IMG/VR virus record: IMGVR_UViG_3300027708_001503
Location: 1 to 20,421 of that record
Reading direction: 5' to 3' (one strand)
DNA: 20,421 nt
DNA from: a virus
Both the position numbers and the translations under genes were made by a program. Shown one piece after another: positions 6 to 18,242 of this stretch (position 1 is its first letter; each line of letters starts with the position of its first letter). A model generated the notes under the pieces. That model did not search any database, was not told where the DNA came from, and saw only the letters and a list, made by a program, of their open reading frames with translations.

Positions 6-419
6 ATGGTCGTTGAAGTTAAACAAGAACCATTACCGGTTGTTGAACCTGTTGTGGAAACACAAGAAGTGAAAGTTGTTGTACCTGAAGTTGTCGTTGA
101 AGAAGATACTGGTCCGCAGTTGACTGAAGAATTCAAACAACATATGGCTAAATGGAAGACAAAAGAAGATACAGTAGAAGTTGCTGCTGAGAATATTACA
201 AAGATAGAAGAACCACAACCTATTGTTATTGATGATATTACGGGTGAAACAATTCCTCCATTAGAACAATCTCCAGGAATACAAATTAGGAGAGAAGAAT
301 TAATACCTGGTATACACGCAGAACACCATGAGGAAATAGAAATTCCTCCTGCTAAAAAATTAGAACCTAAGTATGATTATAATGAACCATTTGCATTTAA
401 AGAGAAGGATAATAAATGA
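6..419 (+). CDS. Acidic Val/Glu-rich phage protein, probably 5'-truncated
   Basis: I do not recognise a family. The visible part is about 137 residues. Its N-terminal third is a low-complexity run of Val, Glu and Pro (motifs such as VVEPVVE and VVVEED), followed by more ordinary acidic and hydrophilic sequence and a Lys/Asp-rich end. No transmembrane segment or catalytic motif is visible. The frame is open to the left edge of the window (a GAT codon precedes the first ATG), so this ATG may be internal and the protein may be longer; the linker-like composition at the start also suggests an interior position. The stop overlaps the uvsX start (ATGA), so it is co-transcribed with recombination genes. 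A role beside UvsX is only a guess from position. Confidence 0.6.
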   Translation: MVVEVKQEPLPVVEPVVETQEVKVVVPEVVVEEDTGPQLTEEFKQHMAKWKTKEDTVEVAAENITKIEEPQPIVIDDITGETIPPLEQSPGIQIRREELIPGIHAEHHEEIEIPPAKKLEPKYDYNEPFAFKEKDNK

Positions 420-3398: not shown

Positions 3399-4504
3399 TT
3401 TTAGAAAGAACGGATGCTTTGTATTGTGCCAAAGCATTTAATGATTACTTTGCCAACTTTGGTGATATTGAACAGTACATGAGAGATGAGAAGTTGAAGT
3501 CTGTGGCTGAACTTCCTTCTTCTTTATTTCCACCTGAAGATGATTTATTTTCAGATTTCTCCATGCATCCAAATGATATGGATATTGAAGTGTGTGAGAT
3601 ACCAAATGATACATGGGAAACATTGCTTGCCATCACCAGTTCCCATGTCAACAAGGCACCAGTTGGAAGAAACATCCAACTGGCAGTCAAAGAAAAGAAC
3701 TCAGGAAAGATTCTAGGATTCATTCGTTTGGGTTCACCAGTAATCTATATGAAACCTCGTAATGAGATGCTTGGACAGGTCTGGATTCAAAATCCTGACA
3801 CATCCAAACGATTCAATGAGTCCACTATCATGGGATTTGTAATCGTACCATCACAACCATTTGGTTTTAATTATCTTGGTGGTAAACTTCTATCTGCTAT
3901 TTGTACCAGTCATACAGTAAGAGAAATCTGTAATAAGAAATATGGTATGAACCTTTGTTTGTTTGAGACTACCAGTTTGTATGGTTCAACTAAACAAGTA
4001 TCACAATATGATGGTATGAAACCTTATATTCGTTTTAAAGGTCTTACAGAATCTGATATGGTACCAATGATGCATGGTCCGAGATATACTGAATTAAAAG
4101 ATTACGTGGAAGGTAAGGTTGGTGATTTGTTGGGTGGTGATGAATCTACCACCAGTAGAAAACTCAGGACATTTACCAAGATTATTGCTTTGACTAAAGC
4201 AGCACTTAAAGGTACACCTGAAGGAGAGGCATTCCATTTAACGATTGAGAACGCTAAAGGGTTGACAGAAAAGAAAAGATATTATGTTTCCGATTATGGT
4301 TATAGTAATATGGTAGATTATATGGGTTGTAAGACCGATACACTTTTACCTGGAGAAAATTATCATAAACATGAACTTGAAAATATCGTTACGTGGTGGA
4401 AAAATAAAGCTATAAATAGATACGAAACTCTCAAAGCTGAGGGTAGATTACGTACCGAACTAGAAGTTTGGACTTCAGGAAAACACATAGAAATTATAAG
4501 GTGA
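3395..4504 (+). CDS. Conserved phage protein, possible DruA/DUF4338-like fold
   Basis: A 369-residue protein without a confident assignment. The central part (about 75-225) has a pattern like DUF4338 (DruA-type) proteins: a strand segment ILGFIRLGSPV, then IMGFVIVPSQPFGFNYLGGKLLSAI, a helix leading to KKYGMNLCLFETTSLYGS, and a YIRFKGLTES strand. In DUF4338 proteins comparable blocks are a hydrophobic strand, an LxxxLL helix, a YG-hydrophobic-ET strand and a hydrophobic-G-x-T turn. This is a by-eye resemblance, not a database match. The C-terminal 120 residues are Lys-rich and may bind nucleic acid. The start overlaps the helicase stop (ATGA), so it sits in the replication operon. Function unknown. 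Confidence 0.75.
   Translation: MILERTDALYCAKAFNDYFANFGDIEQYMRDEKLKSVAELPSSLFPPEDDLFSDFSMHPNDMDIEVCEIPNDTWETLLAITSSHVNKAPVGRNIQLAVKEKNSGKILGFIRLGSPVIYMKPRNEMLGQVWIQNPDTSKRFNESTIMGFVIVPSQPFGFNYLGGKLLSAICTSHTVREICNKKYGMNLCLFETTSLYGSTKQVSQYDGMKPYIRFKGLTESDMVPMMHGPRYTELKDYVEGKVGDLLGGDESTTSRKLRTFTKIIALTKAALKGTPEGEAFHLTIENAKGLTEKKRYYVSDYGYSNMVDYMGCKTDTLLPGENYHKHELENIVTWWKNKAINRYETLKAEGRLRTELEVWTSGKHIEIIR
4411..4418 (+). promoter_or_regulatory. Possible T4-type late promoter (TATAAATA) inside a gene
   Basis: An exact match to the T4 late promoter octamer lies within the end of the 369-aa gene, about 90 bases before the next start codon. It encodes ordinary residues (Ala-Ile-Asn-Arg), so it may be chance. 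If active it would give late expression of the 389-aa gene downstream. Confidence 0.2.
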
Positions 4505-4507
4505 AAA

Positions 4508-5677
4508 ATGTTAACTTTAGCAAAGCCAAGTGCAAGTCAATTAACCAGGATGCAAGAATTAACTTCTGCTTGGATTTTTCGCCGTGCTTTGAATGATAAC
4601 ATACACTATAAAAATGTTGATGAATTAATTAATGATGATAAGTTCAAAGAAGAAATTATTGGTAATAAAACAAAAAAAGGAATATATCCTTTTGTTGATA
4701 AAGACAGAGAATGGTTAGAAACTTTTCTAAAACAACAACAACGTTTCTTAAAAGAATTCTCAAATGCTAAATTTAAAGAATTTAGTGTTGAAGGTGGATT
4801 CATGGATTGGGTATCAAAATTAGTTAATCAAAAATATCATATTGCTAAAAAAGATGCATGGGATCCTGCTGACGTATGGTGTGTTCAAAATGAAGCAGAA
4901 GTTAAAAAACAAATAACAAATGCAATTAATGAATCATTAAATATTGAAGTATTGAATTCGGAACTTAGAACACTCTTTAAAGAAAGAAAAGTTGTTGGTA
5001 TTTCTTTAAAGAAAGTTTCTTTAAAAGTTGCAGACGCTAGATATCAAGAAGTTAATGTTAAAGAAGGTGTGTTATTCTCATCAGGTAAACATCCTACTTT
5101 TAAAGTCAATGAGATTCGATGTGATTTAAAATTGTTACCAAACGGAACAATTAAAGCTAATGATTCTAAAATATATTTTATTGTTGAATACACAAAAGAA
5201 AAATTAAATTATACACTAACTATAAGAACATCTGGTAGAACATATAGACCAGGCAACCAGATATTTGAATTTCAAGAACCTGGTGCAGCCGCTCAAATTG
5301 GTAAAGCTCCGGTTGACCTCGTAGAGAATGCTGCACAAAGACACAAACATATGAATTTTGACAATGAATGGAAAAATTATCCAACTACTATGTTAGAATT
5401 CAATACACAAGAAAAAGAATGGTGTGGTATCTTTAATAAGATTAAAAATAAAGTTAAAACAAATATTAATTCAGAAGAAGAATTTGTCAAAACTATGACA
5501 ACATTATTAATGGACAAAGAAAATTATGGTACGGCTAATTCTAAATTGATGCAATTAAATTTTTTATACAATTTAATTGACTTAGGTGAAGTTGAAATGG
5601 AAAAGTTTGTTACAGACCTATTTTTCTTAGCAGAAAAACGTGGACCAGGTTTTGGTCCTTTTGGAAAGATTTATTGA
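4508..5677 (+). CDS. Conserved phage protein with KDxWxPADxW and GISLKK motifs (possible nuclease-like fold)
   Basis: A 389-residue protein I cannot name with certainty. Two conserved-looking blocks stand out: KKDAWDPADVW (114-124) and KVVGISLKKVS (161-171), separated by a helical stretch. An acidic residue in the first block and a hydrophobic-S-x-K strand in the second resemble the D...(E/S)xK core of PD-(D/E)XK nucleases with the usual Glu replaced by Ser. This is an inference from motif geometry. The middle is Lys-rich with beta character (IYFIVEYTKEKLNYTLTI), and the C-terminal 120 residues look helical. The ribosome site AAGGTG overlaps the upstream stop, and the gap to the upstream gene is three bases. 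It could equally be a structural or DNA-binding protein. Confidence 0.75.
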   Translation: MLTLAKPSASQLTRMQELTSAWIFRRALNDNIHYKNVDELINDDKFKEEIIGNKTKKGIYPFVDKDREWLETFLKQQQRFLKEFSNAKFKEFSVEGGFMDWVSKLVNQKYHIAKKDAWDPADVWCVQNEAEVKKQITNAINESLNIEVLNSELRTLFKERKVVGISLKKVSLKVADARYQEVNVKEGVLFSSGKHPTFKVNEIRCDLKLLPNGTIKANDSKIYFIVEYTKEKLNYTLTIRTSGRTYRPGNQIFEFQEPGAAAQIGKAPVDLVENAAQRHKHMNFDNEWKNYPTTMLEFNTQEKEWCGIFNKIKNKVKTNINSEEEFVKTMTTLLMDKENYGTANSKLMQLNFLYNLIDLGEVEMEKFVTDLFFLAEKRGPGFGPFGKIY

Positions 5678-5678
5678 T

Positions 5679-5957
5679 ATGACAATCCAACTAGATGATG
5701 ATTTTGGTTTCTCTGCCATATCAGCAACAGATTATGAAGCGAGAATAAGTAAAGCAGTCAAAGATGCTGAATATGATGCATCTTCATTAACTGCTAGTAA
5801 TTATCAAGCTCAACTATTGGAATTAGAGAAGATGATTCTTCCGTTCTTGGAAAAACTCCGTGACACTGGAGATAAAGAATATATATATTGGCCTAATCGT
5901 AGACCTGCTATAGATAAACAAATAGAAAAGATATTGAAACTAACCAGAGGAAATTAA
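5679..5957 (+). CDS. Small conserved T4-like phage protein (92 aa)
   Basis: An unrecognised but phage-typical small helical protein. The second half carries the pattern LLELEKMILPFLEKL followed by KEYIYWPNR and KQIEKILKLTRG, which I associate with short proteins of unknown function in T4-like aquatic phages. The start is the ATG at 5679, one base after the preceding stop; a longer reading from a TTG inside the preceding gene is less likely. It is the last gene before the sugar block and has a two-base gap to the next start. Confidence 0.75.
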   Translation: MTIQLDDDFGFSAISATDYEARISKAVKDAEYDASSLTASNYQAQLLELEKMILPFLEKLRDTGDKEYIYWPNRRPAIDKQIEKILKLTRGN

Positions 5958-5959
5958 TT

Positions 5960-6562
5960 ATGAAATTTTATGATGATGTGAGAAACAGGCTAGGACACAG
6001 ACAGCCTGGATTTGATTATATTTTTAAATATTTAAAACTCAAACAAGACCCACTAATAGTAGAAACTGGTTGTGCCAGACAATTAGATAATTATGAAGGT
6101 GATGGACAGAGTAGTTTACTATTTGACAAATATATTAATGAATACGGTGGAACTTTTTGGACAGTAGACCTTGCTGAAGAATCGGTAGAGTATTCTAGAA
6201 GCAGAATGACAAGTAGCAATAGTTCTGTTACTTTAGGTGACAGCATTACAAAACTAAAACAACTAAATGAAATTCTATTAGAGCAGAATAAGAAAATTGA
6301 TTTTCTATATCTGGATAGTTTTGATGCACCAAGAGATGAACCTCAGGTTGTATACATGAGTGCTTTACATCATATGTATGAATTGTTAACAATTAGTCCT
6401 TCATTGAAGAAAGGTACACTAATTGGTGTTGATGATAATTGGGTAGAGTATAAAGATGGCCAACCTGTATTAGCAGGCAAAGGCCAATTTATTTTTGATT
6501 ATATGAATAAATCTGGTCGACCAATAAAACAAAATGGTTATCAGTTATTTTGGGAGTGGTAA
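5960..6562 (+). CDS. SAM-dependent methyltransferase (Methyltransf_24-like)
   Basis: A 200-residue class I methyltransferase-like protein. The SAM-binding loop is IVETGCAR (33-40), the acidic residue after strand 2 is in FWTVDLAEE (D70), strand 4 is FLYLDSFDAP (115-124), and strand 5 is LIGVDDNW (154-161), the arrangement seen in the Methyltransf_24 group, where the later acidic residues can bind a metal. This group often acts on sugar hydroxyls or other small acceptors. A good AGAGGAAA ribosome site lies just upstream. The gene opens the carbohydrate cluster and overlaps the GT2 gene by one base. The acceptor is unknown. Confidence 0.8.
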   Translation: MKFYDDVRNRLGHRQPGFDYIFKYLKLKQDPLIVETGCARQLDNYEGDGQSSLLFDKYINEYGGTFWTVDLAEESVEYSRSRMTSSNSSVTLGDSITKLKQLNEILLEQNKKIDFLYLDSFDAPRDEPQVVYMSALHHMYELLTISPSLKKGTLIGVDDNWVEYKDGQPVLAGKGQFIFDYMNKSGRPIKQNGYQLFWEW

Positions 6563-7272
6563 TGTCTGCTACCGTGATTATACCAACTACTGGTTCTCCA
6601 GAGTTACGTAAAGCTATTGATTCTGTACTGAAACAAACATACCCAACAACTTGTTATGTTGTATCGGATGGTTTAAAAAATCATTCGAGAACAAGAATGA
6701 TTGTTGATGATTTTCCTGCCAAACATATAGAAAAATGTTATTTGCCTTTGAATGTTGGTGCCAATGGATTTTATGGCCACCGTGTCTATGCCGCTTTCAC
6801 ACATCTAATTGATACCGAGTATGTTCTATATCTAGACCAAGATTGTTGGTTAGAACCAAACCATGTACAATCTTGTATTGAAACTATTGAGGAGAATAGC
6901 CTAGATTGGTCCTATTCATTACGTAACATAACAGACAAAGATGGTAACTTTCTATGCCAAGACAATTGTGAATCTTTAGGTAAATGGCCAGTATTTTCTG
7001 GTGATTATAATCACATAGATACTAATTGCTATTGCCTTAGGACTGACCATGCGATAAAATTAGCGTCTGTATGGCATGGCGGTTGGGGACAAGATAGAGT
7101 TTGGTTCAATGTATTGTCCCAAGCATTCTCTGACTATAATTGTACAGGTCAATATACTGTAAATTATCGTGTTGCTGGTAATGAAGGTTCGGTTAAACCA
7201 GAATTCTTCAATTATGGTAATAAAATTATGTATGAAAGATACAACAACGGATCTTTTCCATGGAGAAAATAA
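6562..7272 (+). CDS. Family 2-like glycosyltransferase
   Basis: A 236-residue inverting GT-A type glycosyltransferase that would transfer a sugar from a nucleotide donor. The N-terminus (ATVIIPTTGSPELRKAIDSV, 3-22) is the typical GT2 nucleotide-binding strand and helix, with VVSDG at 33-37. The metal-binding DxD is in YLDQDCW (D92, D94). WGQDR near 175-179 fits the acceptor-side acidic motif. No membrane segment is present, so it should be cytoplasmic. I chose the ATG at 6562 (TAATG overlap, GGGAG ribosome site) rather than the TTG 12 bases upstream. It overlaps the following oxygenase gene by 13 bases. Donor and acceptor are not predictable. Confidence 0.88.
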   Translation: MSATVIIPTTGSPELRKAIDSVLKQTYPTTCYVVSDGLKNHSRTRMIVDDFPAKHIEKCYLPLNVGANGFYGHRVYAAFTHLIDTEYVLYLDQDCWLEPNHVQSCIETIEENSLDWSYSLRNITDKDGNFLCQDNCESLGKWPVFSGDYNHIDTNCYCLRTDHAIKLASVWHGGWGQDRVWFNVLSQAFSDYNCTGQYTVNYRVAGNEGSVKPEFFNYGNKIMYERYNNGSFPWRK

Positions 7273-8018
7273 TTAATGACCGTAATTGGTTTGATTTGAG
7301 TGAATCATTTTTCGAAGCGAAACCATTTAATCATATTATAATCGATAATTTTTTTGTCGATTCGTTTGCACGAAACATATTTGCTGATATGCCTGAATAT
7401 GAATCGGACACAGATATGAGATATGATAATGCTATTGAAAAGAAAAGAGCAACACAAAATTGGGCTAAGTTTCCAAAAAATATTTACAAAGCTGCATCTT
7501 ACCTAGTTGGCAACGAATTCACACTCAATCTAAAACAATTAACATGGCAAAATGAATTAGTGGCTGATTTTGGATTACATGGTGGTGGTATTCATATGCA
7601 CCAGACTGGTGATTATTTGAATACACATCTAGATTATGATATTCATCCAAAGATGGATATGAAACGTAAATTAAATCTGATTGTATATTTGAATCCAAAT
7701 TGGCAAGAATCTTGGGGTGGAAATTTGAGTTTTTGGTCACATGATGAAGAAAAGAATCGAGCAAAAGATTTAATTAAATCTATACCTCCTTTGTTCAATA
7801 GAGCCGTTCTATTTGATACCACACAAAATTCTTGGCATGGTGTTACAGAAGGTATATTTGCACCAGAAGGACAGTATAGAAAAAGTCTTGCTTTCTATTA
7901 TTTGATTCCAACAGAAGATATAAGTAATAAGAGACAGAAAGCATTATTTGTTCCGAGAAAAGAACAAGAGAGTGATGAAGATGTTATGAAATTAATTAAA
8001 GTGAGGTCAGGTTATTAA
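7260..8018 (+). CDS. 2-oxoglutarate/Fe(II)-dependent oxygenase
   Basis: A 252-residue prolyl-hydroxylase-like oxygenase that would hydroxylate a substrate using O2, 2-oxoglutarate and Fe(II). The metal triad is visible: HLD (H123, D125) and a distal His in WHGV (H193). The 2-oxoglutarate-binding Arg is R207 in YRKSLAFYY. Between them, LNLIVYLNPNW and GGNLSFW match the usual jelly-roll strands. Such enzymes are common in T4-like aquatic phages, but their targets are mostly unknown. Its place between glycosyltransferase genes suggests it modifies the glycan or the protein that carries it. The start overlaps the GT2 gene by 13 bases and its ribosome site is weak, suggesting coupling. There is no other suitable in-frame ATG nearby. 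Confidence 0.9.
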   Translation: MEKIINDRNWFDLSESFFEAKPFNHIIIDNFFVDSFARNIFADMPEYESDTDMRYDNAIEKKRATQNWAKFPKNIYKAASYLVGNEFTLNLKQLTWQNELVADFGLHGGGIHMHQTGDYLNTHLDYDIHPKMDMKRKLNLIVYLNPNWQESWGGNLSFWSHDEEKNRAKDLIKSIPPLFNRAVLFDTTQNSWHGVTEGIFAPEGQYRKSLAFYYLIPTEDISNKRQKALFVPRKEQESDEDVMKLIKVRSGY

Positions 8019-8019
8019 T

Positions 8020-8883
8020 ATGCAAAATCTAATTATTGGTGGATTCACCAACTACAATTATAATCAACTTAAACCTTGGGTTGAATCAATCTGTGAAGTG
8101 ATGCCGGATGCACATAGAGTTATGTGTGTTGGTAATGCAACAGATGAAACAAAATCAATCTTAACAAATAAGGGATTTGAATTGGTCGATATGCCAGAGG
8201 CCAATAATATTCCCATTCACGTTCTAAGATTTCTTTCCATCTATGACTATCTTTCCAAAAATTGGAAGAAGTTTAATTATGTTATTACAACAGATGTGAA
8301 AGATGTTTATTTCCAGAAAGACCCATTTGAGTGGTTAGACTACCACAATATTGGTGTTAAAGATATGAAACAGCTTGTGGCAGGTTCAGAATCTATCTGT
8401 TATAAACATGAATCGTGGGGTAACCAAAACTTAATGGAAACTTATGGTGGTTACATCTACAGCAAATTCAAAGATAATGAAATCTATAACGTAGGTGTAC
8501 TCGCTGGTTCATCTGAATATGTTAAAGATTTGGTGTTCAATATCTTTACTAATGCAATCAACAGGCCTATTCCTATCGTTGACCAGGCGGTCTATAATGT
8601 GTTGATTCAAACACAACCATATAAGAATGTTATTCATTATACCAAACAACATGAGGCTTGGGCTGTACAGGCTGGAACAGTTGCTGACCCAACCAAGATT
8701 GATGGTTTCAGACCAAATCTAACAGACCTAGAACCTGTATTCTATGATGGTATTGTTTACAATTCATTGAATCAACCTTTCTGTATTGTACACCAGTATG
8801 ACCGTGTACCAGAATGGAGAGAATTCGTACAGAAGAAATTCAAACAGGACGATCCATCACAATTTTTCACATATAGAGTTTAA
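8020..8883 (+). CDS. Probable GT-A fold glycosyltransferase
   Basis: A 287-residue protein with the layout of a nucleotide-diphospho-sugar transferase. The N-terminal strand is LIIGGFTNYNYNQ. A strand ending in ITTDVKDVYFQKDP (89-102) carries the DxxD-type metal site seen in transferases with the D-hhh-F-x-x-D-P pattern. NVGVLAGSSEYV and PIVDQAVYN give the acceptor-side segments, and FCIVHQYDR supplies a late His. The gene starts one base after the oxygenase stop, with GAGG upstream. I am confident of the general class but not of the family number, donor or acceptor. Confidence 0.75.
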   Translation: MQNLIIGGFTNYNYNQLKPWVESICEVMPDAHRVMCVGNATDETKSILTNKGFELVDMPEANNIPIHVLRFLSIYDYLSKNWKKFNYVITTDVKDVYFQKDPFEWLDYHNIGVKDMKQLVAGSESICYKHESWGNQNLMETYGGYIYSKFKDNEIYNVGVLAGSSEYVKDLVFNIFTNAINRPIPIVDQAVYNVLIQTQPYKNVIHYTKQHEAWAVQAGTVADPTKIDGFRPNLTDLEPVFYDGIVYNSLNQPFCIVHQYDRVPEWREFVQKKFKQDDPSQFFTYRV

Positions 8884-8893
8884 AGGAAATAAA

Positions 8894-9439
8894 ATGTTAC
8901 AACCAGCAATATCAGGTTATGTTCCAATCCATGAGCCATCTGGTCGTGGTTTAGGAGAATTCGTTAGTCTTTTAAGTAAGCCGGTCGTATTGGAAATTGG
9001 TTGTGATTCCGGAGAAACAACACAATTTTTACTGGAATCTAATCCTAAATTAGAAATACATTGCATAGACCCGTATATTGAATTTACAGATTGGGGTGGT
9101 AATGTTGTTACTAATAGACAACAGATGTATGAATCCGTTTTAGCTAGATTTTCTGGTTATGGTGAAAGATATAAACAATATCGATATACATCAAACGATG
9201 CACTCTTTCATTTCCAAGATGACCAATTTGATTTGATTTTTATTGATGGTCTACACACTTACGAACAAGTTTCATGGGACTGTGAGAACTATTATTCAAA
9301 AGTAAAAACTGGTGGTATATTCTCTGGTCATGATTATGAAACTATTCCTGGTGTAAATCGAGCAGTTAATGAGTTTGCTGCAAAGATTGGCAAAACTGTT
9401 TTACGTACCAATAATGATGTTTGGTATTGGATCAAATAA
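8894..9439 (+). CDS. Methyltransf_24 family SAM methyltransferase
   Basis: A 181-residue class I methyltransferase. Motif I is LEIGCDSGE (33-41), the ribose-binding acidic residue is in CIDPY (D59), and FDLIFIDGLHTYE (112-124) plus GGIFSGHDY (140-148) give the metal-binding acidic and His residues typical of the Methyltransf_24 group, which includes sugar O-methyltransferases of macrolide pathways. I chose the ATG at 8894, preceded by AAAGGAAA, over a reading that extends 36 codons back into the previous gene; the gap from that gene is then ten bases. It overlaps the next gene by one base (TAATG). A role as a sugar O-methyltransferase in the cluster is likely but inferred. Confidence 0.88.
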   Translation: MLQPAISGYVPIHEPSGRGLGEFVSLLSKPVVLEIGCDSGETTQFLLESNPKLEIHCIDPYIEFTDWGGNVVTNRQQMYESVLARFSGYGERYKQYRYTSNDALFHFQDDQFDLIFIDGLHTYEQVSWDCENYYSKVKTGGIFSGHDYETIPGVNRAVNEFAAKIGKTVLRTNNDVWYWIK

Positions 9440-10248
9440 TGAATGAGATAACAATTGTAACGGCCTTCTTTGATATAGGTCGTGGTGAGTGGACTCCTGA
9501 AAAAGGATTGCCTCACTATTTACAGAGAACTAATGATACATACTTTGAAAGATTTGCCAACATGGCAAGTTTGGATAATACTATAGTTGTTTATACCTCT
9601 GAAGATTTAACTGAAAAAGTTTGGCAAATAAGAAAAGATAAGATTGACAAGACTGTTATTATTACGATAGACTTTGAAGAAGAATTTGGTGATTATAGAG
9701 AAAAGATTAAGAAGGTACAAAACAATCCAGAATTTTTAGCAAAGATTAATCCGAATCAAGTTAAGAATCCAGAATATTGGTCGGCAGATTATGTACTTGT
9801 TAACTTTCTTAAATCACACTTTGTTAATCATGCAATTGGTGCTGGTATAGTTGAAACTGATTTGGTTGCATGGTTGGATTTTGGATATTGCCGTGAACCA
9901 TCTACATTAGGTGGTGCCACCGTTTGGAAATATCCTTTCAACAAAGATAAAATTCATTTCTTCAATATCAAAGAATTTAATTCCGATACTTCAATAACTA
10001 GTATCATATCTAATAATGATGTACACATTACTGGACCATGTATCGTATCTAGTAAGAAAATGTGGCCAGAATTGGAAAGATTGATGAATGAAAGTTTTAA
10101 CGAACTAATATCTAAAGATTTAATTGATGATGACCAGACACTATTATTGTTATCTTCATTAATTGAACCAGAAAAATTTGAACTACATCCAATCTCACCT
10201 AACGATTGGTTTATTGCTTTTAGGAAATATAATGAGAATTTATCTTAA
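9439..10248 (+). CDS. HtrL/YibB (WlaTC)-like putative glycosyltransferase
   Basis: A 269-residue protein of the HtrL_YibB / WlaTC type. Signature pieces are TIVTAFFDIGR (5-15), LQRTNDTYFERF, NPEYWSADYVLVNF (110-123) and VAWLDFGYCR (143-152). In bacteria these genes sit in lipopolysaccharide or lipooligosaccharide loci (WlaTC of Campylobacter, YibB near waa genes) and are assumed to be glycosyltransferases, although the reaction is not settled to my knowledge. The LDFG segment may take the place of a metal-binding motif. The ATG at 9439 overlaps the preceding stop (TAATG); a TTG upstream was rejected. It overlaps the following gene by 17 bases. The family assignment is from remembered motifs. 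Confidence 0.8.
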   Translation: MNEITIVTAFFDIGRGEWTPEKGLPHYLQRTNDTYFERFANMASLDNTIVVYTSEDLTEKVWQIRKDKIDKTVIITIDFEEEFGDYREKIKKVQNNPEFLAKINPNQVKNPEYWSADYVLVNFLKSHFVNHAIGAGIVETDLVAWLDFGYCREPSTLGGATVWKYPFNKDKIHFFNIKEFNSDTSITSIISNNDVHITGPCIVSSKKMWPELERLMNESFNELISKDLIDDDQTLLLLSSLIEPEKFELHPISPNDWFIAFRKYNENLS

Positions 10249-10978
10249 TGGAACTGCCAATCTTGGCGACTTTTTGAATGGACTGCCTGTCATGTCCGGC
10301 ATTAGTAGAGAATATGGTAAGTATTCTTTGACAATCAAAAAAGAAATGAGAAAGTTTAAAGGACTTACAGAGTTTCTAATGTATCAGGACCTATTCACGG
10401 ATGTTATGTTTGATGATGAAGTCTTTATGTATGGTGATATCATGCAAATGAGTTCTTGGCCTATCAGAGAGGATAAGAACAATCCAGATAGACCAATTGA
10501 AACTTGTCGTTATGAAAACTTTATGAAAGATAACTTTGGATTGATGTTTGATGTAGATGATGAGTTTATCATTAAGACACCAGAATACAATATTGAAGTT
10601 AAAGATAAGTATTATGTTGGTGACCGATGGGCTGTCGGTGAAATTGATACACGTAGAAAGACACACATTCTATCACACTTAAGTAATTGTGAGTTTATTG
10701 ATTTCAACAATGATATGTTGACAAATGCCTACATCATTAAGAATCTAAAGAAACCATTTATCACCAACTTTACGGGTGTTGGTATGATGGCTGACTTATT
10801 GAATAAAGAATTGTTTTGTGTCTGGAAAGCAGAAGATTGGAATCCAGAATTTAGAGTTGGTAATGATGTGTCGTGGGACAACGGCAAGAATATTGATAAG
10901 GTATTTGAGAAACATTTCTACCTGAATCGTAAAGGTCGTTTAGTTCATGCGAATGATTTGAAAGGATTAATGAAATGA
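10232..10978 (+). CDS. Probable glycosyltransferase, GT9/GT-B-like N-terminus
   Basis: A 248-residue protein. The N-terminal segment IYLNGTANLGDFLNGLPVMSGI (3-24) resembles the first strand, glycine loop and helix of GT-B (heptosyltransferase-like) enzymes. Near the end FITNFTGVGMMADLL would fit the site where GT9 enzymes carry a GxxH-type donor motif, but the usual DSG-H residues are not seen, so it may be a divergent or partner subunit. The ATG at 10232 has AGGAAA five bases upstream; the reading that begins earlier in the previous gene was rejected. The ATGA overlap with the next gene indicates coupling. A second GT9-like gene lies about 0.7 kb downstream, so the two could act in pairs. 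Confidence 0.65.
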   Translation: MRIYLNGTANLGDFLNGLPVMSGISREYGKYSLTIKKEMRKFKGLTEFLMYQDLFTDVMFDDEVFMYGDIMQMSSWPIREDKNNPDRPIETCRYENFMKDNFGLMFDVDDEFIIKTPEYNIEVKDKYYVGDRWAVGEIDTRRKTHILSHLSNCEFIDFNNDMLTNAYIIKNLKKPFITNFTGVGMMADLLNKELFCVWKAEDWNPEFRVGNDVSWDNGKNIDKVFEKHFYLNRKGRLVHANDLKGLMK

Positions 10979-11676
10979 ATATAGTATCAAAAGATACAGC
11001 AATATTGGTTGTCTCATATACAGGCGGTAATGATCCTGAACATTATAGTTGTGGCGATTATACTATTGTACAAAAGAAACTTAGAATGCTTAGAACTCTT
11101 ATGAAGAAATTAAAAGAGACTGGTTATTATGTTTGTTTGGCTTCACACTCTATTTTGGATGAAGAAACTCAAAATAGTTGTCATCTATCCATTTACGATT
11201 CCGACAACTGTTGGCAAATTAATGGTGTTCCAAAAAGACCAAGTTACAGTATTGCTGAGATGACCTCTATTCATAATGGGTTAGACTTATTGCGTGCTCG
11301 TGGTTTTAAGAATGTTTTAAAATTGTGTTATGACCAACGACCAGACATTGATTATGGAAAACTGATTAAGAAGTTCGAAACGTCAGATAAAAAACTTATA
11401 ACACTACAAGATGATTATGGCGTTGGTACATTATTCTTTTTTGCTGATATGCAATTCGTTAAAGATACACTTTCAATGGATGAAATTCACCGAATCGATT
11501 ATCTTCCCGTACAAGCTATAGAAAGAATGTGGTTCAATTCTATCAGAGATAAAGGATTGACCCACGAAATTCAAAAATATTCAACATATGAAGAAATGAT
11601 GGAAATACCTTTAGGTTCACCTGTTCACTTTTCTTCTATGGATGGCGGAAACAAATTATATGACTACAATTATTGA
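10975..11676 (+). CDS. Putative glycosyltransferase-like protein
   Basis: A 233-residue protein I cannot assign firmly. The N-terminus has a hydrophobic strand (AILVVSYTGG) and a helix, then YYVCLASHS, consistent with a Rossmann or GT-A start. FKNVLKLCYDQRPD (111-124) resembles the K-x-R-x-D strand of WaaG/WavE-type or related transferases, with D120 and D124 as candidate metal ligands. TLFFFADMQFV and the acidic end are unremarkable. It lies between two GT9-like genes, overlapping the first by four bases (ATGA) and the second by 17, so a carbohydrate role is likely by context. Confidence 0.55.
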   Translation: MNIVSKDTAILVVSYTGGNDPEHYSCGDYTIVQKKLRMLRTLMKKLKETGYYVCLASHSILDEETQNSCHLSIYDSDNCWQINGVPKRPSYSIAEMTSIHNGLDLLRARGFKNVLKLCYDQRPDIDYGKLIKKFETSDKKLITLQDDYGVGTLFFFADMQFVKDTLSMDEIHRIDYLPVQAIERMWFNSIRDKGLTHEIQKYSTYEEMMEIPLGSPVHFSSMDGGNKLYDYNY

Positions 11677-12382
11677 TATTAAACCTGGAACTTTTGGTGG
11701 TGCATTACGTAATGGTGACATGATTGGTGTCGCTAACGTTGTAGAGTATCTAAGGAAAATTAGAAAAGACCCAACAATCAAATTCAATATTATACAAGAA
11801 TGGCCAGGAATCAATTCGGAAAAATATTGTCAAGACTTCTACCAGTTTCTGTTAAACGCAACAGACTATTTTACAATTCTTCCTGGCCGAGAAACTTTAC
11901 CTTGGCGTAGAGTTAACTTATGGGACTTTAGAGATATATCTGGTGACTTGGTTAAAATACCAAACAAAGTGGAAATGAAAAAAAAGATTGTTGTATTTCC
12001 ACTATTTGATGCTCCCTATAATGTATATCGTAATTGGCCAAATATTCTGTTTGAAGATATTATTGATAAGTATAGTACAGAGCAGTATGATGATTATGAA
12101 AAAATTATCTGTATAAAAGATAGACACAATAGACCTAATTACAGAAAATGGAAGTATTCACATGATTTCATGGACAATATTCACCACATCCAAGAAGCAG
12201 AAATTTTTATTGGTGGTGATACTGGTACTAGCCACTTTGCATGGGCTCTTGACAGGGGACCAGAAGAACTGATATACTATAACTCTAGTCGTGGTCTTGT
12301 CCACACTTTGCCATTTTATCTGACACAAGGTAAGGGTAAATTAAATACATATTGGTTAGATTTTGAAAGCACAACTTGGTAG
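11660..12382 (+). CDS. GT9-like (heptosyltransferase-type) glycosyltransferase
   Basis: A 240-residue GT-B-type protein. The strongest evidence is FIGGDTGTSHFAWAL (183-197), which matches the donor-binding D-(S/T)-G-x-x-H-x-A motif of GT9 heptosyltransferases. The N-terminal GGALRNGDMIGV (13-24) fits the first glycine loop. It is shorter than bacterial GT9 enzymes (usually about 320-350), so one domain is reduced. I prefer the ATG at 11660, which has GGCGGAA upstream, over the ATG six codons earlier, which has no visible ribosome site. It overlaps the preceding gene by 17 bases. Donor and acceptor are unknown. Confidence 0.72.
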   Translation: MTTIIDIKPGTFGGALRNGDMIGVANVVEYLRKIRKDPTIKFNIIQEWPGINSEKYCQDFYQFLLNATDYFTILPGRETLPWRRVNLWDFRDISGDLVKIPNKVEMKKKIVVFPLFDAPYNVYRNWPNILFEDIIDKYSTEQYDDYEKIICIKDRHNRPNYRKWKYSHDFMDNIHHIQEAEIFIGGDTGTSHFAWALDRGPEELIYYNSSRGLVHTLPFYLTQGKGKLNTYWLDFESTTW

Positions 12383-12391
12383 GAGTTAATT

Positions 12392-13429
12392 ATGAGTAAA
12401 AATGTTTTGATTACAGGTGGTGCTGGCTTTATTGCTCACCATGTGATTGATAAGATGCTTAAAGAGACAGATTGGAATATTATCTGTTTAGATAGATTAG
12501 ATATTTCTGGTAATCTAAATCGATTACATGATATGTTACAAGACCATGATATGAAGGTTGTGTCTAAACGATTGCGTATTGTATTCCATGACCTCAAAGC
12601 AGAACTAAATGAAATGATTGTCAAGGACATAGGTCCTGTCGATATCGTCTTACACTTGGCTGCTGGTAGCCACGTAGACCGTAGTATTGAATTTCCATTA
12701 GAGTTTGTACAAGACAATACTGTTGGTACAGTTAATATGCTTGACTATGCTCGTAAACATTTGCCTAATCTGGAACGATTCGTATATTTCTCCACAGATG
12801 AAATCTTTGGTGTCGCACCTCCTGGTGTTTCATATAAAGAATACGACAGATATAATTCTACAAATCCATATTCAGCATCCAAGGCTGCAGCAGAAGAATT
12901 CTGTGTTGCCTATGAAAATACCTATAAAATGCCTATCGTTGTAACACATACGATGAATGTATTTGGTGAACGTCAGCATCCAGAGAAGTTTATTCCTATG
13001 TGTATTCAGCGTGCTCGTGATGGCGAAAAAGTTTATATTCATGCCAATCCAGATTGTACAGAAGCTGGAACAAGAATGTACATCCACGCTAAAGATGTAG
13101 CCGAAGGTCTAATGTTCATTCTCAATAAATTACCTAAAAATTATAAACATACTGGTGATTATGGTTGGGCTCATTGTCCAAAATTCAATTTGGTTGGTAC
13201 AGAAGAAATTGATAATCTATCATTGGCACAAATGATTGCTGAAGCACAAGGCAAAGAACTCAATTATGAAATGGTCGACTTCCACGGCAGTAGACCTGGA
13301 CATGATTTGAGATATGCATTAGATGGTGGTCTATTGAAGTCACTTGGTTGGGAACCTAAAATCAAACTGAGTGAACGAATTAAAGAAATGACATTATGGA
13401 CACTAGAAAATAAAAGGTGGTTGAAATGA
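12392..13429 (+). CDS. RmlB-like NAD-dependent sugar-nucleotide 4,6-dehydratase
   Basis: A 345-residue extended short-chain dehydrogenase, close to the usual RmlB length. It would turn an NDP-hexose into the 4-keto-6-deoxy sugar, the entry point to deoxysugars. The NAD site is TGGAGFIA (8-15), with Ala where the third Gly is usual. The active-site block FSTDEIFG (133-140) has the Asp-Glu pair (D136, E137) diagnostic of 4,6-dehydratases rather than epimerases. The YSASK catalytic Tyr and Lys are Y160 and K164. SHVDRSI (93-99) is also typical. Strong AGGAG ribosome site at 12381-12385. It overlaps the acetyltransferase gene (ATGA). The nucleotide (dTDP, CDP or other) cannot be told. It can feed the C-methyltransferase downstream. 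Confidence 0.9.
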   Translation: MSKNVLITGGAGFIAHHVIDKMLKETDWNIICLDRLDISGNLNRLHDMLQDHDMKVVSKRLRIVFHDLKAELNEMIVKDIGPVDIVLHLAAGSHVDRSIEFPLEFVQDNTVGTVNMLDYARKHLPNLERFVYFSTDEIFGVAPPGVSYKEYDRYNSTNPYSASKAAAEEFCVAYENTYKMPIVVTHTMNVFGERQHPEKFIPMCIQRARDGEKVYIHANPDCTEAGTRMYIHAKDVAEGLMFILNKLPKNYKHTGDYGWAHCPKFNLVGTEEIDNLSLAQMIAEAQGKELNYEMVDFHGSRPGHDLRYALDGGLLKSLGWEPKIKLSERIKEMTLWTLENKRWLK

Positions 13430-14004
13430 TTAAATCTGTAGGCAAACATACATATGGTACCGATGGTTATACAACAACGGTAAGAGAATTTATTTCGTAT
13501 GCTGACCCAACAAGACCTTCTGTTCACATTGGTTCTTTTACTGGAATAGGTCTTGGTTGTAGATTTTTTCCGTCTGAAGGTGTTGCACATAATCCTAAAG
13601 CTTGTACAAATTATGCATTTGGTAATTTAGGACCAAGAAACGAAATATTCAACAATATTGCAATTCCACCAAAGGTCCAAACTAAAGGAGATATCAACAT
13701 TGGTTCTGATGTTTGGTTTGGTGAATCCGTTACTGTCATGTCTGGTGTTACTGTTGGTCATGGTGCAGTTGTTGCCACAAACTCTCATGTATTTAAAGAT
13801 ATTGAACCTTATGCAATATATGGTGGTAATCCAGCAAAATTAATAAAATTCCGTTTCGATAAAGAAATCATTGATGCTTTTTTAGAGATGAAATGGTGGG
13901 ATTTACCTGATGAGATGATTAATAAAATTTTGCCATTGTTGCAACAAGAACCTACTATGGACATTATAAATCAAATGAATCAAATAATCAAAGGCGGAAA
14001 CTAA
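13426..14004 (+). CDS. Hexapeptide-repeat O/N-acetyltransferase (CatB/Vat-like)
   Basis: A 192-residue left-handed beta-helix acyltransferase. Hexapeptide turns are visible in VHIGSFTGIGLGCRFF and in the run from about residue 90 (INIGSDVWFGESVTVMSGVTVG and on), ending with the characteristic YAIYGGNPAKLIKFRF. H55 in the loop EGVAHNPKA is the candidate catalytic His, as in CatB/Vat enzymes. The helical tail is also typical. It would acetylate a sugar, probably as the nucleotide sugar, with acetyl-CoA. I chose the ATG that overlaps the dehydratase stop. Placed between a dehydratase and a C-methyltransferase, it likely acts on the same sugar. An aminosugar substrate would need an aminotransferase, which is not in this window. 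Confidence 0.9.
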   Translation: MIKSVGKHTYGTDGYTTTVREFISYADPTRPSVHIGSFTGIGLGCRFFPSEGVAHNPKACTNYAFGNLGPRNEIFNNIAIPPKVQTKGDINIGSDVWFGESVTVMSGVTVGHGAVVATNSHVFKDIEPYAIYGGNPAKLIKFRFDKEIIDAFLEMKWWDLPDEMINKILPLLQQEPTMDIINQMNQIIKGGN

Positions 14005-14732
14005 TGGCTTCATTAGGAATTTATCATTGGAATAAAGATAATAAATCTGGACTAGAGGCATCAATTGCTTCTTTCCGTAAATACAATCCAAGTATTCCTT
14101 ATTTTCTGGCTTGTGATGCCTCTGGTGGTTCACAATATGATATCTGTAAAAAGTATAATGTAAATTATCTTCATGCAGATTTTGACTTAGGTTATCCTTC
14201 TCCTCATTGGGGATTTGATAAATTACGTGTGTATAATTTTCTCAAACGGATGATGATGGCTGCCATATGTATGGGTACCACACATTTTATGATATCCGAA
14301 GACGATGTTATTTGTTTGAATGAAATTCAATTTGATGAAAGTTGGGAAATTTCATCCTATGATATTACTGTAGGTAATTATATTAATCAGGAAGTATTAG
14401 ATGTGTGTGAAAGAATCTCTGGTGTCAAACCAGACAGAACACAATACGGTGCTGGTGCTGGTACAATTATGAAAACTTCTACATTCATACAGAACTTTTA
14501 TAAAGTTGTTGAATTCTTAGATAAAGATTTTGATAGATTACACCAGAATCAACCACAACTAGGATGGAATGATTGTTTCCTACAAGTATACTTCTTCCTG
14601 TGTGGTGCTAAATATAGTGTGAATCCAAGATTACACAATATTTTTCCAGAGAATCCAAATCTGGATTTAAATGAAATGAAGAACCATTACGACATGGTTC
14701 ACAATTATAAAAATTTTTATGAGGGTAGATAA
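14004..14732 (+). CDS. Probable GT-A type glycosyltransferase
   Basis: A 242-residue protein with features of a GT-A fold. The N-terminus reads as LGIYHWNKDNKSGLEASIASF with a strand and helix, then IPYFLACDASGG. The likely metal site is FMISEDDVICL (95-105; E99, D100, D101). YGAGAGTIMKTSTF and LGWNDCFLQVYFF fit acceptor-side segments, the WND being a candidate catalytic acidic motif. The TAATG overlap with the acetyltransferase and the one-base overlap with the C-methyltransferase place it in the deoxysugar sub-block, so it may transfer that sugar. The family number is uncertain. Confidence 0.7.
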   Translation: MASLGIYHWNKDNKSGLEASIASFRKYNPSIPYFLACDASGGSQYDICKKYNVNYLHADFDLGYPSPHWGFDKLRVYNFLKRMMMAAICMGTTHFMISEDDVICLNEIQFDESWEISSYDITVGNYINQEVLDVCERISGVKPDRTQYGAGAGTIMKTSTFIQNFYKVVEFLDKDFDRLHQNQPQLGWNDCFLQVYFFLCGAKYSVNPRLHNIFPENPNLDLNEMKNHYDMVHNYKNFYEGR

Positions 14733-15919
14733 TGGACTTAACTGAAATTAAAAGATGTTTGGCTTGTGATTCGGACCAATTAGTTCCGGTACTTGACTTA
14801 AATGACCAGCCGTTGGCTAATTCTTACAAAAAGAATAAAGATGACCACGAAGATTCATACCCATTAAAAATTCAAAGGTGTGAAAATTGTTATCATGTAC
14901 AGTTGACTCACGCTGTTAATCCAGACCTAATCTATAAAAACTACCTGTATGTGAGTGGAACTACCAGTACCTATGTTGAATATATGGATTGGTTTGCTGA
15001 TTTCTGCCTTGAGAAGTATGGTAGAATCACACCATTCACAGTATTGGATATTGGTTGTAATGACGGTTCACAGTTGAATAAATTCAAAGCCCGTGGTATT
15101 AAAACATATGGTGTTGACCCAGCTGAGAATTTACATAGATTATCTTCTGCCAACCATGAAGTTGTGTGTGGATATTTTGACGAGACTTATTCAAATAAAG
15201 CCGATATCATTGTTTGTCAGAATGCTTTTGCTCATAATCCCAATCCAGTTGAGTTTTTAAAGAACTGTAAAAAGAATTTAGAACATTCGGGATTAATTTT
15301 TATTCAAACATCTCAAGCGGATATGATTTTGAATAATGAATTTGATACAATCTACCACGAACACATTTCATTCTATAACATTCATTCGATGAAGTTATTG
15401 TGTAGAAGAGCAGGGTTGAACCTGATTGATGTGGTGAAAACACCCATCCACGGTATAAGTTATGTATTTATTATTAGTGCAGATAAAACTGCCGAAGCTA
15501 CTGTTAATAATCTAATTGATATGGAAGCAGTTGCTGGTTTGTACAAAACAAAGACTTATTGGCAATATGAAAGTAAATGTTTGAACATGGTTAGTTCGTT
15601 CAGCACGTTTGTTGACTATTGTAGAGACCAAGGATATAAGATTATTGGTTATGGTGCACCAGCCAAAGGTAACACACTATTGAATTTCTCTAAAGTGGCA
15701 ATGGATATGATTATTGACGATAATCCATTGAAACAGGGGCTCTATACTCCAGGTTCCTCTATTAGTATAGTCGGCTCAGATGTATTGAAATCTTTTACCG
15801 AATCCGACAAAATACTATTTATACCATTGGCTTGGAACTTTTTCGATGAAATTCGTAAAAGAATTCTCGTACATAGGAACAATCAGAATGACAAGTGGTT
15901 GGATTTGAGAGAACTATAG
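14732..15919 (+). CDS. Sugar C-methyltransferase (TylC3/NovU-like)
   Basis: A 395-residue, three-part SAM enzyme of the NDP-sugar C-methyltransferase type. Residues 1-65 form a zinc-binding domain with CxxC pairs C9/C12 and C50/C53. The central SAM domain has LDIGCNDGS (105-113) and the family block YHEHISFYN (208-216), which supplies catalytic Tyr/His/Glu. The C-terminal domain has the typical GYGAPAKGNTLLNF (306-319) and DDNPLKQGLYTPG. Family members methylate C-3 or C-5 of 4-keto-6-deoxy sugars, the product expected from the RmlB-like gene of the same block. Length and motifs look complete. It is the last gene of the carbohydrate cluster, followed by the only sizable non-coding gap. Confidence 0.92.
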   Translation: MDLTEIKRCLACDSDQLVPVLDLNDQPLANSYKKNKDDHEDSYPLKIQRCENCYHVQLTHAVNPDLIYKNYLYVSGTTSTYVEYMDWFADFCLEKYGRITPFTVLDIGCNDGSQLNKFKARGIKTYGVDPAENLHRLSSANHEVVCGYFDETYSNKADIIVCQNAFAHNPNPVEFLKNCKKNLEHSGLIFIQTSQADMILNNEFDTIYHEHISFYNIHSMKLLCRRAGLNLIDVVKTPIHGISYVFIISADKTAEATVNNLIDMEAVAGLYKTKTYWQYESKCLNMVSSFSTFVDYCRDQGYKIIGYGAPAKGNTLLNFSKVAMDMIIDDNPLKQGLYTPGSSISIVGSDVLKSFTESDKILFIPLAWNFFDEIRKRILVHRNNQNDKWLDLREL

Positions 15920-15983: not shown

Positions 15984-16010
15984 GGTTAAATGTTATATAA
16001 ATAACTAACC
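15984..16010. repeat. Inverted repeat surrounding the late promoter
   Basis: GGTTA (15984-15988) and GTTAT (15992-15996) pair in order with ATAAC (16001-16005) and TAACC (16006-16010), leaving a three-base AAT bulge and an ATAA loop: ten base pairs around the promoter octamer. CTAACCG also occurs twice (15951-15957 and 16005-16011), so GGTTA has two possible partners. Confidence 0.5.
15996..16003 (+). promoter_or_regulatory. T4-type late promoter TATAAATA
   Basis: Exact match to the T4 late promoter octamer, recognised by host RNA polymerase carrying the phage late sigma-like factor (gp55 in T4). It sits 46 bases before the first gene of the downstream block, in the only real intergenic gap of the window, and nothing else is encoded there. 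A start site about a dozen bases downstream would leave a leader of roughly 35-45 bases. This marks the switch from replication and sugar genes to late genes. The octamer lies inside an inverted repeat (15984-16010). Confidence 0.85.
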
Positions 16011-16048: not shown

Positions 16049-16078
16049 ATGTTGACATTTCAATCTTTCCTAAAAGAA
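16049..16078 (+). other. Capsid-targeting-like leader, protein 1
   Basis: Encodes MLTFQSFLKE. Compare the T4 internal-protein leader MKTYQEFIAE: T, aromatic, Q, x, F, aliphatic, x, E line up without gaps. A gp21-type cleavage after LKE would follow the (L/I)xE rule. Confidence 0.5.
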
Positions 16079-17239
16079 GAAGCCGAAGGCGGCGAACTCA
16101 AACACATCCATCATGCGGAAGATAGACCGTTAATGCACGGTCATGCTGGTTTTGAGCACGCTCATGCTGCTTTAATGAAGGCTCATGCTCACATGACGGC
16201 TGGTGCCAAAACTAGTAATCTGACTATGAAGTATGATGGTTCTCCATCTATTGTATTTGGCCATCACCCAAAGACTGGTAAGTTTTTTGTGGCCACTAAG
16301 TCAGCCTTCAATAAGAATCCAAAGATTAATCATACAGAAAAAGATATTGAACGAAACCATGGTCACGCACCAGGCCTTGTAACATCACTTAAACACGCTC
16401 TCAAACATCTACCAAAAGTAACACCTAAGACTGGTGTTTATCAAGGTGACTTGATGCACCATGCTGATACCAAGGTACTGAAAGAAGAACATTTGTTTGA
16501 AGCTGCAAAAAACAAAGTTTCTTTTACACCAAACACAATCACATATACCGCTCACGGTCCAGAAGCAGCAAAGATTAAGAAGTCTAAAGTCGGTGTAGTA
16601 GTTCATCACAAATATAATGCTGACATGACTTCTGCTTCTCCTCATGTTGACCATGAAAACTTCAAGGAACATCCAGATGTTCATATTCATGGTGCAGAAC
16701 ACGACACATCTAAGGTCAAACATTCGGCAGCAAATGAACATGGTTTCCAAAAACATATGGCTGCTGCCAAAGAAATCCACGACACCCACGGCCACAAGAT
16801 GTATGATGCCATCCATCCATCACATTCTGGTGAGACTGGTCATTTATCTACCTATATTAATAAGACAGTTCGTACAGGCGAAGTTCCAAATGTCAAGGGT
16901 TTCAAAGAACACCTAAAAGATGTCCACGAAAAACAAGCAGCCAAAGTTAAAACACCAAAAGCAAAAGCTGAAAAGACTGGTGAAGGCGCCAAACAAATTG
17001 CTCATGTAGAAAAAAATAAATCACATTATGGTAATCTGTTGACTATGCATCATCATTTGCAGCAGGCCAAAAATCACTTGGTCAATTCATTAGAAACGCA
17101 TGAAGGTAGTTATCAACATCATATCGCTGGTAAAAAATCTAAACCCGAAGGATTTGTGGTTCACCACGAAAATCAACCAACTAAATTGGTAAATCGTGCT
17201 GAGTTTGCTAGACAAAACTTATTGAAGGTGAGGAAATGA
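16049..17239 (+). CDS. Ligase-superfamily-like nucleotidyltransferase with capsid-targeting-like N-terminus
   Basis: A 396-residue, basic, very His-rich protein (about 50 His), first gene of the late operon. I believe it belongs to the uncharacterised family DUF6267 of T4-like phages (name from memory). Motifs match covalent nucleotidyltransferases (DNA/RNA ligases): motif I LTMKYDGSPS with candidate lysine nucleophile K61; a motif III-like GVYQGDLM (129-136); motif IV PEGFVVH (366-372, E367) and motif V TKLVNR (K379) twelve residues later, the spacing seen in T4 Rnl1. A large His/Lys-rich insertion separates III from IV. The first ten residues, MLTFQSFLKE, resemble the T4 capsid-targeting sequence, with a possible LKE cleavage site. 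It overlaps the next gene (ATGA). Activity is inferred, not known. Confidence 0.8.
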   Translation: MLTFQSFLKEEAEGGELKHIHHAEDRPLMHGHAGFEHAHAALMKAHAHMTAGAKTSNLTMKYDGSPSIVFGHHPKTGKFFVATKSAFNKNPKINHTEKDIERNHGHAPGLVTSLKHALKHLPKVTPKTGVYQGDLMHHADTKVLKEEHLFEAAKNKVSFTPNTITYTAHGPEAAKIKKSKVGVVVHHKYNADMTSASPHVDHENFKEHPDVHIHGAEHDTSKVKHSAANEHGFQKHMAAAKEIHDTHGHKMYDAIHPSHSGETGHLSTYINKTVRTGEVPNVKGFKEHLKDVHEKQAAKVKTPKAKAEKTGEGAKQIAHVEKNKSHYGNLLTMHHHLQQAKNHLVNSLETHEGSYQHHIAGKKSKPEGFVVHHENQPTKLVNRAEFARQNLLKVRK

Positions 17240-18216: not shown

Positions 18217-18242
18217 AATCCTTTTTAGAAGTTGTACAGGAA
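18213..18242 (+). other. Capsid-targeting-like leader, protein 3
   Basis: Encodes MKSFLEVVQE. A shorter match: KSFL aligns with the SFL core of the two preceding leaders, and the Glu at position 10 could be a cleavage point, though VQE departs from the (L/I)xE rule. Confidence 0.35.

Follow-up and report, generated by a model that had tools for sequence, protein, structure and literature searches.

A fixed-site island of predicted glycan genes between gp41 and DUF6267 in uncultured T4-like phages

The glycans of phages are mostly known as glucose on DNA, or as the work of single transferases on the virion or the host surface. Here we describe an island of 13 genes (A to M, in order) at positions 5960–15919 of a 20,421-base stretch of DNA, the whole IMG/VR record of an uncultured virus (IMGVR_UViG_3300027708_001503; hereafter the window). 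The genes appear equipped to assemble an unusual sugar chain and to decorate it, probably to coat the particle or disguise the infected cell. Virus-encoded glycan synthesis is already known in kind, and the island would be a variant of it with a predicted target. It comprises 4–13 genes, with a conserved transferase core, apparently interchangeable sugar modules and late promoters, and is found on dozens of contigs from uncultured, presumably lake, phages.

The closest working parallel appears to be the glycogene clusters of the Megavirinae, a group of giant viruses. Megavirinae clusters comprise 6–33 glycogenes at a site conserved in most clades, specify lineage-specific rare sugars, are expressed late and provide the glycans on the capsid fibrils (PMC10117803). 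The phage island likewise combines glycosyltransferases with rare bacterial-type sugar pathways and sugar methyltransferases, has clade-specific content and keeps its position between fixed flanking genes. Nucleotide-sugar genes (J, K and M) stand together with several glycosyltransferases (B, D, G and L), and a conserved position goes with lineage-specific content (52 blocks, 25 gene orders). Late expression of the phage island is a prediction from promoter sequence: a late-promoter motif lies before and after the block and is strongly depleted inside it. In contrast to the Megavirinae clusters, the island resides in a tailed bacterial phage and has 4–13 genes and a predicted glycan. It also has one shared late unit, whereas nearly every gene has a late promoter in Mimivirus, and its predicted sugars are of 3-C-methyl and 3-dehydrase type where the Megavirinae clusters have amino sugars.

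Pelagimyophages and cyanomyophages resemble the present phages as T4-like aquatic phages with hypervariable carbohydrate genes, including some nucleotide-sugar enzymes (PMC7029224). The pelagimyophage glycosyltransferases, interpreted as modifying the O-chain, belong to a host recognition cluster bounded by vrlC and gp14, and the freshwater group PMP-D is reported to be without lipopolysaccharide (LPS) genes (PMC7029224). That cluster lies with tail-fibre genes and the other clusters have 2–3 genes, whereas the island is flanked by gp41 and the DUF6267 gene. Mycobacteriophages Che8, Corndog and Myrna reportedly also encode transferases, with virion proteins as the proposed target (Freeman 2023); for Che8 and Corndog a single essential transferase is named each, in contrast to a 13-gene pathway with a predicted target here. 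Bacterial loci for the LPS core or lipooligosaccharide (LOS), such as the Acinetobacter OC locus, place HtrL/YibB amid changing sets of transferase and tailoring genes at a fixed site, as here (PMC4172580). Unlike them the island is phage-borne, and no WaaL-type ligase was found in ten long relatives (49–170 kb, possibly fragments).

A glycosyltransferase core at a fixed site

The block is an island of variable content at a fixed site between gp41 and DUF6267, arranged around a glycosyltransferase core. We scanned 2.9 million viral contigs with F, obtaining 80 loci; a scan with gp41 gave 79 further new loci (best 80 of 598). ORFs were called in these loci and clustered into families. Defining a complete block as B through DUF6267, we retained 52, window included, after removal of seven duplicates; neither the promoter counts nor those of gene order include L002, L006, L082, L083, L099, L110 and L153, which are duplicates or the same contigs. 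Some near-identical pairs were kept (for example L010/L011, L017/L018 and L074/L075), so that the counts are not of independent events.

These 52 complete blocks display 25 gene orders and 35 gene families, with 4–13 genes each. All 52 blocks contain families B and D, and 48 contain F; G and L are each present in 41 and I in 39, and no other family exceeds 24. The gp41 scan does not rely on glycan genes, although a few of its contigs recur from the F scan. It recovered both B and D in 29 of the 31 loci that extend at least 5 kb past gp41, and F in 21; the two loci without B (L154 and L155) still have a J-like gene. An earlier note on the window had suggested comparing synteny with relatives, and the comparison revealed highly variable content at a constant site. 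In contig L002, from another metagenome, all 13 genes recur in unchanged order, and their proteins are 100% identical to those of the window. This shared order, together with the similar gene types of many relatives, rules out a chance pile-up of genes or a misassembly.

The accessory families sampled include methyltransferases (Methyltransf_24/23 and TylF), SDR epimerases and the DUF5672 family. Close relatives of the window additionally have an RfbH/ColD-type 3-dehydrase and a second SDR. In one such 3-dehydrase (L004:15603-16886), His replaces the lysine that binds pyridoxal phosphate, which we take to be the mark of the 3-dehydrases, and its segment SFYPAHH aligns with SFYPAHH of 3bcx; against the RfbH equivalog it scores 367.8 bits, under the 423-bit cut-off.

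Genes within the block differ in how closely they match their relatives. In L008, L010 and L011, J is 94–96% and L 89–90% identical in protein to the window, as is K at 89% in L010 and L011, whereas B, D and I reach just 55–63% and gp41, where present, 81–88%. At the DNA level the values are 84–87% for J, K and L and 68–73% for B, D and I. This pattern suits exchange of J-K-L as a module, although unequal constraint could account for part of it.

The earlier note had described a 10-kb run of carbohydrate genes at 5960–15919, and the run is present there on the plus strand. Its count of eleven genes, nearly all overlapping by 1–17 bases, has to be revised: 13 ORFs, all on the plus strand, fill the interval, and nine of the twelve junctions overlap by 1–17 bases while three have gaps of 1, 9 and 10 bases (with ATG 11660 as the start of gene I, the point at which its family aligns). 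The kinds of gene it named were upheld by Pfam, PHROGs, NCBIfam, PDB-sequence and fold searches, and a 2-oxoglutarate (2OG)-Fe(II) oxygenase (7260–8018) joins them. Altogether the block encodes no fewer than five glycosyltransferases or proteins much like them. Its other products include an enzyme of dTDP-glucose 4,6-dehydratase type, one sugar 3-C-methyltransferase, a pair of class-I methyltransferases, one hexapeptide acetyltransferase and a 2OG oxygenase of prolyl-hydroxylase type. By hydropathy, all 13 proteins are predicted to be soluble, without a membrane-spanning stretch.

Among the core genes, B (6562..7272) encodes a GT2 glycosyltransferase (PF00535, 2e-10). The product of D (8020..8883) is assigned as a glycosyltransferase from phrog_1579 (6.6e-6) and a family alignment with an invariant TDVxD motif; D itself lacks a notable Pfam match, and one of 16 family members matches PF25342 GT_PLOD, the PLOD glycosyltransferase domain, at 1.2e-4. 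F (9439..10248) is an HtrL/YibB family protein (PF09612, 1.9e-63) with relatives in bacterial LPS-core and sugar loci. G (10232..10978) has no sequence match in Pfam or PDB, and PF01075 is unmatched among 17 family members. Its AlphaFold2 model (pLDDT 88) has a GT9 heptosyltransferase-like GT-B fold, with Z 13.8 over 206 residues and a root-mean-square deviation of 3.5 against 3tov, and Z 13.4 against WaaC (2h1f). For I (11660..12382), a GT9-like glycosyltransferase is weakly indicated by PF01075 at 0.0016, under the cut-off, and at 0.0014 in one relative. The model of L (14004..14732; pLDDT 92) points to a GT-A fold glycosyltransferase, matching 349 PDB chains at E≤0.001 with Z up to 15.0 and GT-A enzymes such as GT6 in the top rows. 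Searching PDB sequences with profiles of D, G, I and L returned no useful match.

Three genes would supply or modify sugars. J (12392..13429) is of dTDP-glucose 4,6-dehydratase type (TIGR01181, 1e-68; PDB 8du1, 1.3e-47). It aligns over its full length with RmlB-like proteins, including the TDE and YxxxK active-site segments, which are presumably catalytic. Its nucleotide specificity is putative, since its 231.8 bits miss the NCBIfam equivalog cut-off of 365. K (13426..14004) is a hexapeptide (CatB/Vat-like) acetyltransferase (phrog_16087, 4e-43) that falls under every curated NCBIfam cut-off, so that drug resistance is not indicated; presumably it acts as a sugar O-acetyltransferase. M (14732..15919) has the three-domain architecture (PF08421, PF13489 and PF08484) of NDP-sugar 3-C-methyltransferases of MtmC/TcaB9 type, and matches PDB 4rv9, which we take to be MtmC, over residues 6–375 (8.9e-59).

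The remaining four are accessory. A (5960..6562) is class-I methyltransferase-like (phrog_24975, 3.7e-39; PF13578, 0.0031, under the cut-off) and E (8894..9439) a class-I methyltransferase (PF13578, 1.6e-19). The oxygenase C (7260..8018; PF13640, 1.5e-17) has OGFOD1, which we take to be a prolyl hydroxylase, as its nearest solved structure (1.8e-8). H (10975..11676) is possibly a glycosyltransferase, judging from its family alignment; a Pfam search and a profile comparison with the other block families gave no match.

Late promoters around the island

A T4-type late promoter, TATAAATA, lies at 4411..4418 (plus strand) in the 3' end of a DruA-like gene, 97 nt ahead of the next ATG, at the start of the late unit that runs into the block. 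Another copy at 15996..16003 (plus strand) precedes the DUF6267 gene and the next unit. The last recognisable promoter of this kind before the block is therefore late, and the next unit starts beyond it. The exact octamer occurs three times in the window against 3.04 expected, which is chance level; it is significant only through its position and its conservation across loci.

The sites before the capsid gene helped to suggest a degenerate form, NATAAATA. Of the 56 loci that have a druA-like gene between gp41 and B, 52 carry this motif at its 3' end (53 sites, against 6.4 expected from dinucleotide shuffles); 19 gp41–B loci without a called druA fall outside this count. In 30 of 38 loci the motif also precedes DUF6267, against 3.8 expected. 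It is strongly depleted within the blocks, with 8 forward sites in 247,413 bases against 81.8 expected, and gp41 bodies contain none (16.2 expected). In long relatives it stands 36–46 nt upstream of the major capsid ORF (4/4) and 59–61 nt upstream of the tail-sheath ORF (3/4). Of 75 loci, 43 carry the exact TATAAATA in the interval from the gp41 end to B, where 32.6 sites are expected. As the loci are related, none of these promoter counts is independent. A sigma-70 promoter scan found 74 sites against 72 expected.

The druA-end motif is kept even though the gene that follows belongs to families without detectable relation. In the window this first gene of the late unit (4508..5677, plus strand; phrog_1462) has no known function, and unrelated genes take its place in relatives. 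Of the families seen there, g389 and c22 are related, and c54, c65, c93, c68, c45, c107 and c51 are not. The version at L007:1795-2724 is similar to a type II restriction enzyme (2e-7).

Because late promoters flank the block and promoter-like sites are depleted inside it, the block is probably transcribed late, together with the virion genes. The earlier note had placed it between replication and late genes. The replication side is borne out by uvsX and gp41 on the left flank, and on the right the DUF6267 gene has its own late promoter.

A predicted glycan and its possible targets

In our preferred reading, to which we give a probability of about 0.5, the block is a glycan-biosynthesis island comparable, in a phage, to the glycogene clusters of giant viruses, and its lineage-specific glycan would be destined for virion proteins. 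From the gene content, fixed site, variability, late-promoter placement and enzyme families computed above, we infer a pathway order, a chain structure, a virion target and a biological role. The soluble glycosyltransferases B, D, F, G, I and usually L would work in the host cytoplasm, assembling an oligosaccharide from the nucleotide sugars of the host, and the changing gene set would make and decorate distinctive sugars. J would open a dTDP-6-deoxy-4-keto-hexose pathway, with M adding 3-C-methylation, K O-acetylation and A and E methylation. C may hydroxylate a protein side chain, creating an attachment site. Joined to newly made virion proteins, the glycan would give each phage lineage its own sugar coat. 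These proteins are the most likely acceptor because the island sits in a late transcription unit, and the solubility of the transferases favours them too.

A glycan assembled on a lipid carrier, as in O-antigen conversion or Wzy-type synthesis, would be expected to leave membrane or lipid-carrier parts. Neither the initiating phosphoglycosyltransferase (PF02397) nor the Wzy/WaaL family (PF04932) was found in any of the ten long relatives, flippase (Wzx) and GtrA/GtrB not having been searched, and the 13 block proteins have no hydrophobic segment. The same ten records served as a positive control, yielding HtrL/YibB in nine and GT2 in ten. This absence counts against lipid-linked polysaccharide assembly.

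The earlier note had left both a virion glycan and remodelling of the host surface open. Late-promoter placement leans towards the virion phase of infection and does not decide between them. The transferases might instead alter newly made host LPS or LOS core and so mask the receptor, which would exclude competing phages or, late on, keep progeny from adhering to the dying cell and its debris. We consider this doubtful, yet a late change of newly made host LOS is the main rival, and a serious one, because of the loci in which relatives of F occur and the WaaC fold of the G model. In Citrobacter, HtrL/YibB relatives have WaaL and GT9 genes as neighbours in an LPS-core locus, and in Acinetobacter they lie near an RmlB-type dehydratase and RmlA-type, FdtA and DegT sugar genes; HtrL has been tied to the LOS outer-core locus (PMC4172580). 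Soluble core transferases, moreover, require neither flippase nor polymerase, and the pelagimyophage glycosyltransferases have been interpreted as modifying the host surface (PMC7029224). Against this, the promoter placement points to a late stage for superinfection exclusion, LPS already exported is out of reach from the cytoplasm, and the families tested for a lipid-carrier transferase, polymerase or ligase (PF02397 and PF04932) were missing from the ten long relatives, as were membrane segments in the 13 proteins. If host LOS is the target, the island would be a large dedicated receptor-masking system instead.

Several points weigh against virion-protein glycosylation, which in this clade is a prediction from genes. 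The Citrobacter neighbourhood of the F relatives and the WaaC fold of G would suit a host-LOS target equally well. No 3,5-epimerase or 4-ketoreductase for the product of J was recognised in the window; the pathway is therefore incomplete and host enzymes would have to fill in. Read-through from earlier transcripts is compatible with the late promoters, terminators having been covered by a consensus scan only.

T4-like phages are the classic case of DNA glycosylation: T4 has DNA glucosyltransferases, and a 2024 study by Pyle reportedly describes virus-encoded transferases that place diverse glycans on DNA. Like T4, the present phages carry glycosyltransferases in a T4-like genome, and the class-I methyltransferases and 2OG oxygenase of the block could serve base hypermodification. 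That the transferases glycosylate modified bases of the genome, a possibility within the earlier note, is nevertheless highly improbable and disfavoured by the searches. Thymidylate-synthase-type hydroxymethylase (PF00303) and C5 cytosine methylase (PF00145) were each absent from all ten long relatives, against 9 and 10 of 14 control genomes positive; the window record is a fragment, as some relatives perhaps are, which bears on the hydroxymethylase result. A Tet/JBP search was empty and uninformative, the controls being equally silent. In contrast to T4, the island has many transferases and a late promoter, which fits poorly with DNA modification, and we know of no base modification that matches so many transferases and so much deoxysugar tailoring. 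Glucosylation of 5-hydroxymethyl pyrimidines was dropped for lack of support in the PF00303 and PF00145 searches.

It seems unlikely that the product serves some other purpose, as a glycan either free or linked to protein: one carried by a host protein, by a protein that is injected or lies inside the head, or by the variable protein whose gene opens the late unit. A gene that varies between unrelated families does stand under the same late promoter directly before the block, but nothing ties it to glycans, and one of its families resembles a restriction enzyme.

Returning to a virion coat, we tentatively propose that a swappable glycan locus, resembling those for O-antigens, is common to this whole T4-like, freshwater clade, whose hosts are probably betaproteobacteria. 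Its late product would coat the virion, and lineages would differ by exchange of sugar modules. Among the coat sugars would be C-methyl and 3-deoxy types, otherwise familiar from O-antigens and antibiotics, and the differences between lineages would be the phage equivalent of capsular serotypes. If so, tailed phages could run a serotype-like diversification of their sugar coat, and the island supplies a concrete enzyme set with which to test this.

Relatives, hosts and neighbouring genes

A search of 50,697 phage records at E 1e-5 drew a blank for B, G and I. It returned a single match for D (21%) and two for F, both in Campylobacter phages (40%), as well as 10 for M and 281 for J. In the cultured Kyanoviridae HTVC008M (a Pelagibacter phage) and DSL-LC02 (a Synechococcus phage), gp41 to DUF6267 takes up ~1.5 kb, and DLP_6 has different genes at this site. 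Across the seven cultured regions examined, block genes of the window had no match near the site except for a 24% J-like gene adjoining uvsX in phage C48C1. In this cultured relative, genes annotated as nucleotide-sugar epimerase and UDP-glucose dehydrogenase adjoin uvsX (L163:12087-13987). The literature searched held no description of the island, which is weak evidence of absence.

The nearest UvsX proteins belong to phages of Stenotrophomonas, Xanthomonas, Acidovorax and Caulobacter and to the unassigned phage C48C1. Cyanophage identity of the relatives found no support, as psbA is absent from all ten long relatives and the UvsX evidence is also contrary. One long relative, G002, has 24 tRNAs and a permuted tmRNA (L171:14946-15328) that matches Rfam beta_tmRNA (Betaproteobacteria) at 158 bits, which together suggest betaproteobacterial hosts. 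A second, G001, has 25 tRNAs and a permuted tmRNA (L186:16632-17104). We found no paper on phage tmRNA in the literature searched. The contigs are presumably of freshwater origin, going by sample numbers and by their relatives.

The flanking genes from uvsX to DUF6267 are on the plus strand. The replication module on the left comprises the UvsX recombinase (416..1489; phrog_97, 5.3e-92) and the gp41-type DnaB helicase (2061..3398; PF03796, 3.9e-19), for which we chose the start at 2061, the longest ORF beginning at 2007. The DruA-like gene (3395..4504; phrog_19197; PF14236, 5.4e-8; PADLOC DruA, 1.9e-7) is the last before the late promoter, and in these T4-like aquatic phages it adjoins replication genes. 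A small conserved gene, g105 (5640..5957; cluster 9 of the ORF clustering), forms the left border of the block. The right border is the DUF6267 gene (16049..17239; PF19782, 1.9e-95), whose product has, by eye, what we take to be ligase-like nucleotidyltransferase motifs, KYDGS near the N terminus and EGFVV near the C terminus. Further on, at 18213–19910, a cytidylyltransferase-like N-terminal domain (PF01467) is followed by a P-loop segment, GGPGSGKD, recognised by eye, a pair that presumably recalls the NadR-type enzymes of NAD salvage.

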